Source of the DNA: an uncultured Candidatus Saccharibacteria bacterium
GTDB lineage: Bacteria; Patescibacteriota; Saccharimonadia; Saccharimonadales; Saccharimonadaceae
DNA: 11,045 nt
Direction of reading: 5' to 3'
NCBI GenBank assembly: GCA_947364965.1
Contig: CANAUU010000026.1
Span: forward strand, 1-11,045
The position numbers and the translations under genes are program-made. Positions 945 through 6,007 of this stretch are shown here, in pieces. Under the pieces are notes generated by a model. The model did no database searches, had not been told where the DNA came from, and saw only the letters and a program-made list of their open reading frames with translations. Numbering within the stretch: position 1 is the stretch's first letter; each line of letters begins with the position of its first letter.

Positions 945-3900
945 TCAAGAACAAAAAGCCGCTGTCGAATATATTGAAGGTCCACTCCTGGTATTGGCTG
1001 GACCGGGCACCGGTAAAACTCAGCTGCTCTCGGCGAAGGTCGCCTACATTCTCGAGCATACTGACGCCAACCCGGAGAATATCCTTTGTTTAACCTTCAC
1101 CGATGCTGGTGCCGAAAATATGCGTGATCGCCTCCAAACCATGATTGGCAAAGCTGCGCTCGATGTTAATATTTATACCTATCACGCCTTCGGGTCGAAT
1201 GTGCTCGAACGCTATAAAAACTACGCCGAAACTCTCGACCGCAAGCTCGACGCCCCAATCGACCAAACCGCGCAATACAAAATTGTCGCCGATATTCAAA
1301 AATCTCTCCCCGCGACCGACATTCTCAAGAACTCCAGCGTGAAGGACATTATCGAGACAATTTCAAATGCCAAATCTGCCCGTCTAGCCGCGAGCGATCT
1401 CCAGAAAATTGCCACCCAGAATGTCGAAGATAGTCAAGCGATTAGCGCCGAAATTTCGCCCATTTTTCTAAGCGCGCCAGCACGAATGAAATTTGACCAA
1501 GCCGTGAGCGAGGTCTACGGGCCAGTGTTAGAAATTTTGGCGAAGTATACCTCGCCGGAGCCGATTACTGGCGGAATTGAACGTATTGCTAATACGATGG
1601 TTCGTGAGTTAAATCAGGTTATTGATGAGTTGCGCGCAGCCGACCCGGGCGTCACTGCGACTGGCAAACCGAAGCAGCCCAGCGTTCAACCGCTTTCAGC
1701 CTGGAAGAAAAAATACGTTGAGGCTTATGATGCTGGCGACCTTGAACACCCTCAACCCGCCTACCGCCTCTCGGATACTATTGCGAACAAAAAACTCTTC
1801 TCGCTCGCCCACATCATGGAGAAATACGACCAGTATCTTAAAGCAAACGGACTCTTCGATTTTGACGACATGATTGAATTCGCGATTCACTATCTCAAAA
1901 CCGATCGCGGCTTCCGCCTCAGCCTTTCCGAACTTTTCCAATATATCCTTCTCGATGAGTTCCAAGACACTAACCCTTCGCAATTCGAGCTAATCAAGTT
2001 GCTGATCGATTACGAAAAGCCAGTCGTTATGGCGGTCGGCGACGATGACCAGGCTATTTATGAATTCCAGGGTGCGAACGCCTCCAACCTGATGGACTTC
2101 CAGCAATATTACAATGCTAAAGTCATCACACTCGTCAACAATTATCGTAGTATCGGCGCCGTTCTCGAGTTTTCGAAGCATATTGCTGATCAGATTACTG
2201 ACAGTTTCGCGAAGAACTACGAGCAAGTTGATAAAACTCTACACTCAATGCGTGATGAATGGGACGGCGTGACGAATGCTCCTGAAATCGAGCGGCATGA
2301 GTTTGCCTGCGCTGAAGCGGAGTATTACTGGATTGCCGAAAAAATCCGTGGGCTGGTTGATGCTGGCGAAGACCCGAATGAAATTGCCATCCTCGCCCCG
2401 AAGCACAAAAATATCACCCCAATTCTCCCGTATCTGAAGGCAAAAAATCTCGACGTCACCTACGAAAAGCGCGATAACCTGCTCCAGGATGACAAAATTC
2501 GTTCCCTCATTACGATTGCGCGCTTTGTTCGGGAGCTCGCCGAGGGAAAGAAGCCCGCTCATCGCCTGCTTGAAATTCTTTCCTACGATTTCTGGGAAAT
2601 CCCCGCCGGCGTTGTTATTTCCGCCATTGAATCATCGCGCCTCACGAATAAGCCGACTTTAAGCTACCTCTCTGGCGACGAGCGGCTTGAGACTCTGGCC
2701 GAATTCTTTGCGAATCTCGCGACCGCCTCGACGACCGCCCCGCTTGAGCTCTGGCTAGATTATCTTATCGGTGCCGTCCCGCTAAAGGGTTTCGCTTCTC
2801 CTTTCTTGGCTTATTACGACAAACACGCCACCGATTTCGAGAAGCTCGAGTTCTATGAAAACCTCGCCACCTTCCGCCAAACTATTCTCAATCACGCAAA
2901 AAGCCTCGACCCGAACGCTAACCTCGATACACCGAAGCTGAAAGACTTCGTCAATACGATCGATGACTACGAAGCGGCCGAGGCTGAAATTATGCGTATT
3001 AGCACCTATCGCGACGACAGCAAGGCTATCCAGGTGATGACAGCGTTCAAGAGTAAGGGTCTAGAGTTCAAGCACGTTTTTCTCAGTTCGGTCGACGACC
3101 ATGCCTGGGGCAAAGCGAAAGGGAATAACAACCTCCTTGCATTGCCCAAAAACCTCGCACAAATCCGTCATACTGGCGTGAGCGACGATGAGAAATTACG
3201 TGTACTTTTCGTAGCGATTACTCGCGCCAAACAAAGTCTCTACCTCACTAACTCCCGCCTAAATAGCGGTGGCAAAGAAATCCATCGCCTCGCCTATCTC
3301 GAGGAAGAAAGTCGTGATAGCGTCGCCGGTACTTCGCCTTATCTCCCCACCGCCGATAAAACCATCCAGCTTCACGACGGCGAACTCAGCCCCGACCAAA
3401 AGATTGAGACCAAGCGCCTCAGCTGGATTTCCGCTTACCAGAACATCGAACCATCCAAGCTTGAGCCGCTTCTGAAAGCTCGCCTCGAGAACTACCGTCT
3501 CACCGCCTCCGATCTAACAACTTTCATCGATCTCACCTATGCCGGCCCGCAAGTAATCTATCAACGCAAGGTCCTCCGCGCCCCCGACGAACCGGCTTCT
3601 CGTGCGCTCTGTTATGGCACCCTCATCCACTCCGCTTTCGAGCAAATCACCAACCAGCATATCGACGATGAAGCTGCGCTCGAGTTCTTCCGTGCCTCCG
3701 TTCCGAAGACAGCTCTCGACGCAGACGAGCAGAAAGAACTACTCGAACAGGGCACGCATGATCTCAAAATCGCCCTTGCTGAGTTTAGCGACATCCTGCG
3801 CCATCCTCATGCTCGCGCCGAGGTTAACCTCTCCCCGGAAGGTCTGGCTTTTGATGGGGTGCCATTAACTGGCAAAATTGACCACGTCCATCTCGACGAA

Positions 3901-4302
3901 GATGCTAAAACCATCGAAGTTTATGACTTCAAAACCGGCACTTTCCACGACGGCAAATGGGACAGCCGCCCATCGCTTTATAAATATCGTCTCCAGCTCG
4001 GATTCTATAAGCTCCTCTTGAACCTCTCCCTGACCTATAGCAAATACAAGATCACTCGCGGGCATATTCTTTTCGTCACCCCTGACGCCGACGCAAAAGT
4101 CCATGATAAGGTTTACGAATATAATGACGTTGACGAAGCGGAACTGAAGAACCTCGCCAAAGCAATTTATCATCAGATTAAATCGCTCGACTTTGTCAAG
4201 AACCCAGACCTTTTCCTGCCGGCCGACAAAGACAATACTATGAAGCAAATCCGCACCTTCGTCGATCTATTAACCTCTGCGACCGAGGAGAGCAGCGACT
4301 AG
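934..4302 (+). CDS. UvrD/PcrA-type superfamily 1 helicase fused to a RecB-like PD-(D/E)XK nuclease (AdnA/AdnB- or AddA-like)
   Basis: This 1122-residue protein has all the SF1A helicase motifs: Walker A GPGTGKT at residues 23-29, motif Ia LCLTFTDAGAENM at 51-63, Walker B DEFQD at 341-345, motif III GDDDQAIYEFQG at 369-380, motif IV NNYRS at 402-406, motif V VMTAFKSKGLEF at 701-712, and motif VI with AITRAK at 761-766. The last 240 residues form a PD-(D/E)XK nuclease with a complete apparent catalytic set: H899 in the GTLIHSAFE helix, D983 in GKIDH, and D998/K1000 in YDFKTG. I see no cysteine cluster for a Fe-S site. By family, this is a DNA translocase that resects double-strand ends, as in RecBCD, AddAB and AdnAB. 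Domain order and length resemble one subunit of mycobacterial AdnAB, but no partner subunit is nearby. The ATG at 934 follows GGGAG at 923-927 and overlaps the preceding gene. No clear terminator follows the TAG stop. Confidence 0.92.
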   Translation: MPLNQEQKAAVEYIEGPLLVLAGPGTGKTQLLSAKVAYILEHTDANPENILCLTFTDAGAENMRDRLQTMIGKAALDVNIYTYHAFGSNVLERYKNYAETLDRKLDAPIDQTAQYKIVADIQKSLPATDILKNSSVKDIIETISNAKSARLAASDLQKIATQNVEDSQAISAEISPIFLSAPARMKFDQAVSEVYGPVLEILAKYTSPEPITGGIERIANTMVRELNQVIDELRAADPGVTATGKPKQPSVQPLSAWKKKYVEAYDAGDLEHPQPAYRLSDTIANKKLFSLAHIMEKYDQYLKANGLFDFDDMIEFAIHYLKTDRGFRLSLSELFQYILLDEFQDTNPSQFELIKLLIDYEKPVVMAVGDDDQAIYEFQGANASNLMDFQQYYNAKVITLVNNYRSIGAVLEFSKHIADQITDSFAKNYEQVDKTLHSMRDEWDGVTNAPEIERHEFACAEAEYYWIAEKIRGLVDAGEDPNEIAILAPKHKNITPILPYLKAKNLDVTYEKRDNLLQDDKIRSLITIARFVRELAEGKKPAHRLLEILSYDFWEIPAGVVISAIESSRLTNKPTLSYLSGDERLETLAEFFANLATASTTAPLELWLDYLIGAVPLKGFASPFLAYYDKHATDFEKLEFYENLATFRQTILNHAKSLDPNANLDTPKLKDFVNTIDDYEAAEAEIMRISTYRDDSKAIQVMTAFKSKGLEFKHVFLSSVDDHAWGKAKGNNNLLALPKNLAQIRHTGVSDDEKLRVLFVAITRAKQSLYLTNSRLNSGGKEIHRLAYLEEESRDSVAGTSPYLPTADKTIQLHDGELSPDQKIETKRLSWISAYQNIEPSKLEPLLKARLENYRLTASDLTTFIDLTYAGPQVIYQRKVLRAPDEPASRALCYGTLIHSAFEQITNQHIDDEAALEFFRASVPKTALDADEQKELLEQGTHDLKIALAEFSDILRHPHARAEVNLSPEGLAFDGVPLTGKIDHVHLDEDAKTIEVYDFKTGTFHDGKWDSRPSLYKYRLQLGFYKLLLNLSLTYSKYKITRGHILFVTPDADAKVHDKVYEYNDVDEAELKNLAKAIYHQIKSLDFVKNPDLFLPADKDNTMKQIRTFVDLLTSATEESSD

Positions 4303-4378
4303 CCTTAAAATCTGCTGTAGTAGTTTTGGATGGTGCCAGTGTTTTTTGCGCACTAGTGGCCAAGGTTGAGTTTCTAAC

Positions 4379-4572: not shown

Positions 4573-4791
4573 ATGGGTCTTTTTACTCAACACAATGACG
4601 ACCTGATTCCTGCCGGAACGCAGCGTTCCGACCAGTATGGTCGTACGGTCGTCGGAGGCCCTCTCGAGGCCTTCCTGTCTGGCGCCAGCAGCACTCCCGG
4701 AACCTATATCGACCGGGAGACTGGCAAGTCTTTCACGTCTGAGCGCGCTATGCGCGAGTATCAGTGGAAGCACGCCCGCGGGCTGGCGTAA
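4573..4791 (+). CDS. Orphan small protein, 72 residues, unknown function
   Basis: I do not recognise this protein family. Several points argue that the gene is real. GAGGTG at 4560-4565 lies 7 nt before the ATG. A near-consensus promoter lies about 160 nt upstream and an intrinsic terminator downstream. Codon choice resembles the neighbours. The product is soluble, with no signal peptide, membrane segment or cysteine. It starts MGLFTQHNDDLIPAG, has a glycine/serine-rich middle (GGPLEAFLSGASS), and ends in a basic, probably helical segment (YIDRETGKSFTSERAMREYQ, then WKHARGLA). The basic end could suit nucleic acid or ribosome contact, but that is only inference. A competing ATG at 4569 in another frame gives nine codons. 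The gene sits between structured RNA on both sides, so it may be a small ORF carried on a functional RNA. Confidence 0.65.
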   Translation: MGLFTQHNDDLIPAGTQRSDQYGRTVVGGPLEAFLSGASSTPGTYIDRETGKSFTSERAMREYQWKHARGLA

Positions 4792-5144: not shown

Positions 5145-5153
5145 TGTTATAAT
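5145..5153 (+). promoter_or_regulatory. Extended -10 promoter for the pseudoknot RNA
   Basis: TGTTATAAT contains a perfect TATAAT (5148-5153) preceded by the extended -10 TG. No good -35 box is visible at 5124-5131, as is usual for extended -10 promoters. The predicted start is near 5160. Confidence 0.6.
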
Positions 5154-5159
5154 AAAAAT

Positions 5160-5303
5160 GTTATCATAATTTATTCATTGAAAGACCGGGTTTACCCCAG
5201 AAGATCGTGGTTTAGAATATGAACGGCGCCGCAAGGAACAGTCGTTCTAGAACCATGACGGTCTCTGGATAAATTGTGATAACACCCTTGCGGTGCCATT
5301 TTT
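5160..5303 (+). ncRNA. Candidate structured RNA with a 12-bp pseudoknot or attenuator
   Basis: Two large helices interlock. AGACCG (5183-5188) pairs with CGGTCT (5259-5264). Stacked directly inside it, 5205-5217 pairs with 5245-5258 over 13 bp, with one bulged G (5250) and one G-U pair. The 27-nt loop of that hairpin contains GGCGCCGCAAGG (5225-5236), which is complementary over 12 bp (one G-U) to CCTTGCGGTGCC (5286-5297). A GGG-TTTA-CCC mini-hairpin lies at 5188-5197. The second helix is followed by ATTTTT (5298-5303), so it can also act as an intrinsic terminator, with the first hairpin as its partner or competitor. No known RNA class is recognised. The transcript could continue to T6 at 5401-5406 or to the terminator at 5501-5528. 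No convincing protein is encoded. Confidence 0.55.
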
Positions 5304-5500
5304 GTATTCAGCCCAGAATTCCAAACTTCGGCGCGCCTGGGTATCCAGTAGCCTCCGCAGCCGCCAGGCAGCTTCACACTATCGGTATAGCACCTACGCC
5401 TTTTTTACAATTTGATGCCGAAATGTACAAGCGGCTGTTTGACGGTGCGGCGGTTGGAGCTGAAATTTATTAAACAACACTAAATTGCCTAAACTATCCA
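5304..5500 (+). other. Unassigned stretch with further GC-rich pairing
   Basis: No conserved gene is seen. GCCTGG 5335-5340 can pair with CCAGGC 5364-5369, or locally CTGG-GTAT-CCAG forms at 5337-5348. GGCG 5330-5333 can pair with CGCC 5397-5400, which is followed by six T (5401-5406), so a weak terminator may end here. A frame opening with GTG at 5276 runs to TAA at 5473 (65 codons) without a ribosome-binding site. I do not call it a gene, although its end (QFDAEMYKRLFDG) does not look obviously random. Confidence 0.3.
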
Positions 5501-5528
5501 AAAATCCCAGCCTCACGACTGGGATTTT
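5501..5528. terminator. Bidirectional intrinsic terminator, chiefly for rpmE
   Basis: AAAATCCCAG (5501-5510), an 8-nt loop and CTGGGATTTT (5519-5528) form a perfect 10-bp hairpin. On the minus strand it begins 18 nt after the rpmE stop and ends in five T. On the plus strand it has four T and would stop read-through from the structured RNA region. Confidence 0.88.
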
Positions 5529-5546
5529 CGAAACCTGAAAACTAGA

Positions 5547-5885
5547 CTAAGCCTTTGCTTCGGCTTTTTCAGCCTTTTTGGCAGCTTCTTTTTCAGCTTT
5601 CTTGGTCTTGTTGCCTAGGGAAGCACGCAACTTCGCCGCACGCTCGGCGCGAGCCTTGAAGCGATCGACACGACCCTCGGTATCGATAATCTTCTCTTCA
5701 CCAGTGAAGAACGGATGTGAAGCAGAAGAAATCTGCACCTTCACCAAAGGATACTCATTTCCATCTTCCCACTTAATCGTTTCTTCGCTTTTAGCCATCG
5801 AGCGCGTCAAGAACGAATAATTTGCCGCCTCATCCATAAAGACAACATAGCGATATTCTTGCGGTTGTGAAACTTTTTTACTCAT
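5547..5885 (-). CDS. rpmE2: 50S ribosomal protein L31, type B
   Basis: This is a large-subunit ribosomal protein of 112 residues from the chosen start. The core [10 protein letters not shown]...[12 protein letters not shown] matches L31. It has no CxxC zinc ligands, so it is the zinc-independent type B (RpmE2/YtjA-like) form. The N-terminal [19 protein letters not shown] segment is also typical of type B. A lysine/alanine-rich tail of about 25 residues ([15 protein letters not shown]...) extends past the usual end and probably contacts RNA. The frame is open further upstream to an ATG at 5930, but I chose the ATG at 5885. The extra residues do not resemble L31, GGGGGAAG lies just before 5885, and the promoter -10 box lies inside the longer version. 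The gene is monocistronic, divergent from the rpsB operon, and ends at a strong terminator. Confidence 0.93.
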
Positions 5886-5895
5886 AACTTCCCCC

Positions 5896-5924
5896 AGTTT
5901 ATCACACTTTGCGTCACCTGTAAA
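5896..5924 (-). promoter_or_regulatory. rpmE promoter
   Basis: On the minus strand TTTACA (5919-5924) and TAAACT (5896-5901) are separated by 17 nt, with an extended TGA before the -10. Only 10 nt separate the -10 from the ATG, so the mRNA leader would be about 0-5 nt and the GGGGGAAG would be mostly untranscribed. Confidence 0.65.
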
Positions 5925-6007
5925 GCCCAACTTTTCGCCATACCCTGTAAAACCAAAACTTCAACCCTCACTCAAAACGCCAACCTTTCAAAATTCACAG
6001 AAACCAT

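Follow-up and report, generated by a model that had tools for sequence, protein, structure and literature searches.

The window, that is, the whole 11,045-nucleotide stretch of DNA that was analysed, carries on its forward strand a predicted RNA of compact fold, which lies directly behind a promoter-like box and faces the end of a gene on the opposite strand, named rpmE in a preliminary description of this DNA. The parts of this copy are listed below, with the evidence for them in brackets.

5145..5153, forward: extended -10 promoter box TGTTATAAT (sequence; fixed box placement across the genus copies)
5160..5303, forward: predicted RNA, from the predicted +1 (G5160, base 7 past the hexamer) through the last U of the tract
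5159..5177, forward: 5' strand of the 19-bp outer helix P1 (sequence, folding, alignments A3 and A6)
5183..5188, forward: 5' strand of P2, AGACCG (sequence, A3, A6)
5188..5198, forward: small side hairpin, the weakest helix, its first base common to P2 (folding, A3, A6)
5205..5217, forward: 5' strand of hairpin P3 (sequence, folding, A3, A6)
5225..5236, forward: loop strand of the pseudoknot, GGCGCCGCAAGG (pairing kept across A3)
5245..5258, forward: 3' strand of P3 (sequence, folding, A3, A6)
5259..5264, forward: 3' strand of P2, CGGTCT (sequence, A3, A6)
5266..5284, forward: 3' strand of P1, whose final bases double as the CACC 5' arm of a small 3' hairpin
5286..5297, forward: 3' strand of the pseudoknot, CCTTGCGGTGCC, which doubles as the GGTG 3' arm of the small 3' hairpin
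5299..5303, forward: U-tract TTTTT (T5 kept across copies)
5305..5475, forward: putative linker remnant and 3' flank of a gene now gone (resemblance to a recurring segment)
5547..5930, reverse: frame named rpmE in the preliminary description

P1 encloses all other helices of the RNA, and the predicted start, G5160, lies inside it. The preliminary description had overlooked this 19-bp helix; the two large helices that it did describe are present as it gave them. The 13-bp hairpin, now P3, contains one bulge and one G-U pair and is extended by AGACCG/CGGTCT; its loop pairs downstream through 12 bp (11 Watson-Crick and one G-U), which are followed at once by A and TTTTT, and the extended -10 box stands upstream. 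Just outside the pseudoknot, C5224 and A5298 are mismatched in the window copy, a position that is paired in most copies. Folding of 5155-5306 by a program without pseudoknots gave -47.0 kcal/mol versus -32.6 (sd 3.6) in 200 dinucleotide shuffles, none of which was as low (z -3.96).

A multicopy RNA family

Seven close copies (alignment A1) served to build a covariance model, R1, and 43 aligned matches, 41 of them distinct (alignment A3), a second one, R2. The R1 match to the window copy spans 5154-5305. A nucleotide search of the window's own genome returned 8 matches, only three of which exceed 60 bases, the element itself included, the other two being 74-75% identical; across 99 genomes of the genus and order (own genome included), such a search found a match in 12, all of the same genus. 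In the own genome, R1 recovers 20 copies (E <= 1.1e-4), and this difference between 8 nucleotide matches and 20 model copies led us to reject a repeat or insertion element.

With R2, a copy was found in 60 of 118 genomes of the genus (37/77 among those at least 90% complete), with at least 406 copies in total when no more than 25 candidates were scored per genome; the remaining 58 gave no match under the stricter filters of that search. Beyond the genus, 14 of 40 genomes of the same family, from 13 of 39 genera, contain a match (weakest E 9.5e-4), and the six positive genomes in a sample of 286 from the phylum all belong to this family. Fuller scoring at E <= 0.001 gave 23 matches in the own genome (G000), 41 in G055, 38 in G142, 44 in G102, 43 in G139 and 23 in G123, a few of which may be antisense echoes, as may part of the own-genome counts of 22 and 23 from R2 searches. 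Some Saccharibacteria carry 20 to 40 copies of this folded RNA per genome. A pattern scan of named genomes found at least 115 stretches; of the 80 matches listed, 78 bear Saccharibacteria titles, with ruminant gut as a frequent source, and the other two lie in bins titled Dysosmobacter (CANQPD010000012.1) and Clostridia (CANQXS010000030.1), which we suspect to be misbinned Saccharibacteria. The copy in the Dysosmobacter bin looks like the same leader, with an exported-looking frame behind it. The two-part pattern had no exact match in viral_contigs, and a viral element was rejected.

The copies share a fold that is maintained by compensatory change. Of 1777 cells in A3, 94.5% are paired, and 41 of the 48 pairs have changed on both sides; none of 500 shuffles equalled this, and sliding the 3' partners by one to three columns reduced pairing to 36-43%. 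Chance, which had been judged very unlikely from the lengths of the helices, is ruled out by these values together with the folding of shuffled sequences. A further 59 loci (A6, some of them orthologues of A3 copies), obtained by repeating a 73-row alignment at E 1e-6, which removed 13 antisense echoes and one other locus (L183), gave the same 94.5%, of 2939 cells, with double changes at 39 of 51 pairs. By helix, P1 is paired in 98.5% of cells in A3 and 97.7% in A6, P3 in 95.3% and 95.6%, and the side hairpin in 80.6% and 75.9%; as the A3 alignment was fitted to the model, the figures for P1, P2 and P3 lean towards it. The pseudoknot is absent from the covariance model, so that its pairing in A3 (97.2% of cells, with double changes at 7 of 13 pairs) is not built in; in A6, with three extra A-U pairs, it reaches 94.9%. 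Both large helices of the preliminary description show compensatory changes. G-U pairs are common in both alignments.

The same holds in other genera. Across 26 rows (A7, including two weak antisense or second-place rows), the four nested helices pair in 93.3% of 747 cells, with double changes at 34 of 35 pairs, and by eye the pseudoknot strands co-vary as well, for example GGACACCG with CGGTGTCC. The family is a clear example of an RNA in which nearly all helix sequence can change and the topology stays constant. In these genera (L307-L324), a short motif recurs by eye past the pseudoknot loop strand, such as ATAAGCA, GTAAACA or CGAAACA, a possible candidate for a recognition site.

Promoter and genes behind the copies

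The copies have a promoter-like sequence at a fixed distance. In 105 of 113 genus copies (the count omits L052, which overlaps L042, and L180-L183), the best TATAAT-like hexamer, with five or six of six matches, abuts the model start; upstream of it, the second and third bases are T in 83% and G in 89%, and the predicted +1, paired in P1, is G in 98%. In 22 copies from other genera, the hexamer ends 0-2 bases ahead of the model start. T5 is present in 111 of the 113 and in 20 of the 22.

For the genes behind the copies, 118 fetched copies, a subset of all, were used, here and for the linkers discussed below. A frame had to have at least 80 aa (60 if running off a contig end) and to start within 300 nt, and a hydrophobic segment was sought in its first 130 residues. 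For 92 genus copies, at least 300 nt of downstream sequence had been fetched (L052 and L179-L183 omitted), and 91 of these copies are followed by such a frame. One of the 91 is a spurious frame behind the window copy, so that 90 of 92 are plausible, 87 of the 90 with a hydrophobic N-terminal segment. L018 lacks a frame, and L160, L169 and L171 lack a hydrophobic segment at the set threshold. As controls, the divergent strand upstream has a frame in 24 of 48 cases (6 hydrophobic) and the antisense strand downstream in 9 of 78 (1 hydrophobic). L018 and L171 belong to one genome (G044) and both lack the usual exported protein behind them, L171 having a different kind of frame 130 nt on.

In G055, where 20 copies were fetched and one is cut by a contig end, the other 19 all precede frames of 491 to 659 aa within about 220 nt. 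Five of these proteins were scanned, and all match the FISUMP family TIGR02145, four above the cut-off and one just below; Pfam PF09603 matched three of the five, in each case below the cut-off. Of the 118 genomes of the genus, 116 have FISUMP matches, and so these are also present where no RNA was detected. Outside the genus, 21 of 22 copies have a frame of at least 60 aa within 300 nt; the products are varied, some of the frames are doubtful, and by eye several products have no obvious hydrophobic start. A leader exclusive to FISUMP genes was rejected on these grounds. Considering promoters and genes together, the element is very probably a cis-acting leader of one kind or another. The preliminary description had treated it as an element beside rpmE; it is instead one of many scattered copies of a leader that serves protein genes. 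Several copies of the own genome lie near contig ends and point endwards (for example on G000 contigs C76, C3, C57, C41, C39, C73 and C31), as if the genes behind them broke the assembly.

The window copy differs from nearly all other genus copies studied, in which a promoter is followed by a codirectional gene: no ribosome site and gene were found in the 170 bases between it and the end of rpmE. Positions 5350-5411 resemble a segment that recurs in the own genome (best identity 71%; 17 rows at E <= 1, itself included), and a similar segment lies about 150 bases past the stop codon of the gene behind another copy, L039. In all likelihood the gene behind the window copy has been deleted, which would make this copy an orphan, and it may have no importance to the cell now. 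The short segment that recurs in these rows lies around CCTTTTTTACAATT (window 5382-5416) and is possibly a shared 3' element. Upstream of the element, a 72-aa frame (4573-4791, forward) has no NCBIfam match at E <= 0.1.

Exclusive pairings at the 3' end

The 3' end can fold in a second way. A small hairpin consisting of CACC, 3-8 nt and GGTG, followed by U5, is available in 132 of 134 copies; since its arms otherwise belong to P1 and to the pseudoknot, the two folds are mutually exclusive, as in an attenuator. Among 25 copies from G000, G014 and G049, the outer pair of the hairpin is A-T 16 times, A-C 7 times and G-C once; among 87 other genus copies it is G-C 71 times and A-C 15 times, and among 22 copies from other genera A-T 21 times and G-T once. 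These tallies omit L052 and draw on lineages that are not independent. Against an attenuator speaks the shortness of the hairpin, 4-6 bp with a mean of -5.8 to -7.4 kcal/mol. In 22 copies its outer pair is A-C and so does not form; the window copy has no more than 4 bp, and a terminator scan of the window had no entry there. According to A6, up to three of the five U can pair with AAA ahead of the loop strand, so that part of U5 may serve the pseudoknot. A U-tract kept solely for this pairing was rejected, as at most three U have a partner there.

In several genomes, a third strand could compete for the same segment. In G000 and G014, the linker between U5 and the ribosome site has a GGGTGTCTA-like strand complementary to the 3' strand of P1, 5-14 nt ahead of GGAGG where found. 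It fits the P1 of its own copy better than that of other copies (-17.5 versus -13.4 kcal/mol; 0 of 5000 permutations, 21 copies), and at least 8 contiguous Watson-Crick pairs form in 16 of 21 copies versus 19 of 1050 shuffles, the window copy having 5. An own-P1 preference at p < 0.05 was absent in the other seven groups, groups being defined by hand with short-linker copies left out. In five genomes, the linker instead repeats the loop strand, in 17/19 copies of G055, 16/17 of G142, 6/6 of G102, 7/9 of G123 and 8/8 of G009 (sum 54/59); the repeat is weak in G133 (3/5), G023 (1/4), G012/G051/G059 (1/7) and G000/G014 (4/21). When 32 chosen leaders were folded, 10-14 of the 14 bases of the pseudoknot-strand region paired with the linker in each, an available alternative only, because the rival pseudoknot is beyond the program. 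As transcription reaches the linker only when the U-tract has been passed, the linker cannot steer a termination event at U5.

We propose, with a probability of roughly 55%, that the element represents a new riboswitch-like family of 5' leaders acting in cis, which would switch by these exclusive folds. Formation of P1 and the pseudoknot would block the small hairpin, and RNA polymerase would continue into the gene; when this fold fails, the small hairpin and U5 would cause transcription to stop or pause. The signal might be a ligand, a protein, an ion or temperature. The third strand in the linker, present in most but not all genomes examined, could then tune the read-through mRNA or the access of ribosomes. 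The preliminary description had offered a pseudoknotted RNA or a regulated, riboswitch-like terminator, and this reading is supported and retained here.

It is also conceivable, if unlikely, that the leader acts after transcription and that termination is not involved: P1 would bury the 5' end, the pseudoknot would block 5'-3' decay or act as a ribosome standby, and the linker strand near the ribosome site would switch translation or stability. The pairing of the predicted +1 within P1 and the place of the competing strand just ahead of GGAGG in G000 and G014 agree with this, and a 5' pseudoknot is required for standby translation of tisB, as described in PMC7708055. Such a leader, however, leaves two things unexplained, the partnerless U at places four and five of the tract and the hairpin before U5 with its co-varying outer pair.

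That the element is instead an independent small RNA, some 145 nt long, ending at U5 and acting in trans, with the genes transcribed separately or by read-through, seems to us quite improbable. It would account for the own promoter, the compact fold and U5, and also for the window copy, which retains its fold though geneless, but not for the position of 90 of 92 copies directly ahead of a same-strand frame, nor for linker strands that match the copy's own P1 in G000 and G014.

A DNA-level hairpin used by a recombinase, a transposon or the diversity-generating retroelements of the genus is scarcely credible: the copies are dispersed and multicopy, and the PF00078 reverse transcriptase is matched in 49 of 60 RNA-bearing versus 21 of 58 RNA-free genomes of the genus (Fisher p 7e-7, relatedness uncorrected), but what the copies have in common is a fold rather than a sequence, with frequent G-U pairs and a constant promoter distance, 11 of the 60 RNA-bearing genomes lack a PF00078 match, the template-like variable part of the genes in G055 lies at their 3' end, away from the RNA, and viral_contigs yielded no exact match to the two-part pattern.

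Relation to known RNAs and surface-protein genes

No Rfam family reaches its cut-off over the element. A search of the window against Rfam 15, a database that the preliminary description had suggested, gave two matches at E <= 5, both away from the element. Across 14 loci that hold other copies, only tRNAs scored above the gathering cut-off, none overlapping a copy; the sole overlap was an antisense mir-263 match (E 0.083; 24.2 bits versus a cut-off of 51.3). A known Rfam family was rejected, as none of the copies searched matches above the cut-off, and so was a tRNA or tmRNA, ARAGORN having found 0 genes in the window. We did not find a description of such an RNA in the open-licence literature of PubMed Central; the main text of PMC8040213 does not mention TM7, Saccharibacteria or Patescibacteria, and PMC11665869 names riboswitches twice, as tools.

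A leader switch as such is of a known kind; its architecture is new. In riboswitches and attenuators, antiterminator and terminator are mutually exclusive. Like them, the element is a probable 5' leader whose sequence allows two exclusive folds, one of which would be a hairpin with a U-tract. Unlike them, it has long, freely changing helices with P1 beginning at the predicted transcript start, many copies per genome ahead of genes for surface proteins, a linker that in several genomes brings in a third competitor, and no Rfam match above the cut-off. The preQ1 riboswitches are much smaller and have other targets, and GOLLD, ROOL, OLE and other large bacterial RNAs are far larger. The element shares with the former (PMC11625349) a pseudoknot as the folded unit of the leader, and with the latter (PMC12286853) a strong fold discovered by comparison; the lack of an Rfam match sets it apart from all of these. 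The mRNA of E. coli tisB likewise has a pseudoknot near its 5' end, distant from the ribosome-binding site, but it is a single toxin mRNA, and the abstract of PMC7708055 mentions no terminator-like end.

The number and position of the copies, up to about 40 in genomes of about 0.8 million bases and mostly before genes of exported or membrane proteins, suggest a regulon controlled by an RNA fold. Saccharibacteria live on other cells, and to our knowledge hardly anything is known of how they regulate their surface proteins. We tentatively consider a stronger form of the proposal, a new riboswitch class in which a sensing pseudoknot, its outer helix opening with the very first transcribed bases and with up to three strands vying for one 3' segment, would switch 20 to 40 surface proteins; this seems possible, though we would not expect it. 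The exclusive folds offer directly testable mutants.

If this were true, a riboswitch-run battery of surface proteins would sit in genomes that often have reverse transcriptases of the diversity-generating kind. G055 contains a diversity-generating retroelement (locus L302, contig C3, 17500-25500). Nine dispersed genes of this genome differ from the template at many non-adenine positions too, and so we do not claim them as active targets. Within the locus, the template lies at 3146-3331 (forward), the reverse transcriptase frame with its YVDD motif at 3379-4308 (reverse), and the variable end of a FISUMP-like neighbour at 5447-5632 (reverse); compared with the template, 23 of 56 adenines are changed in this end, and of 130 other bases, 0 are.
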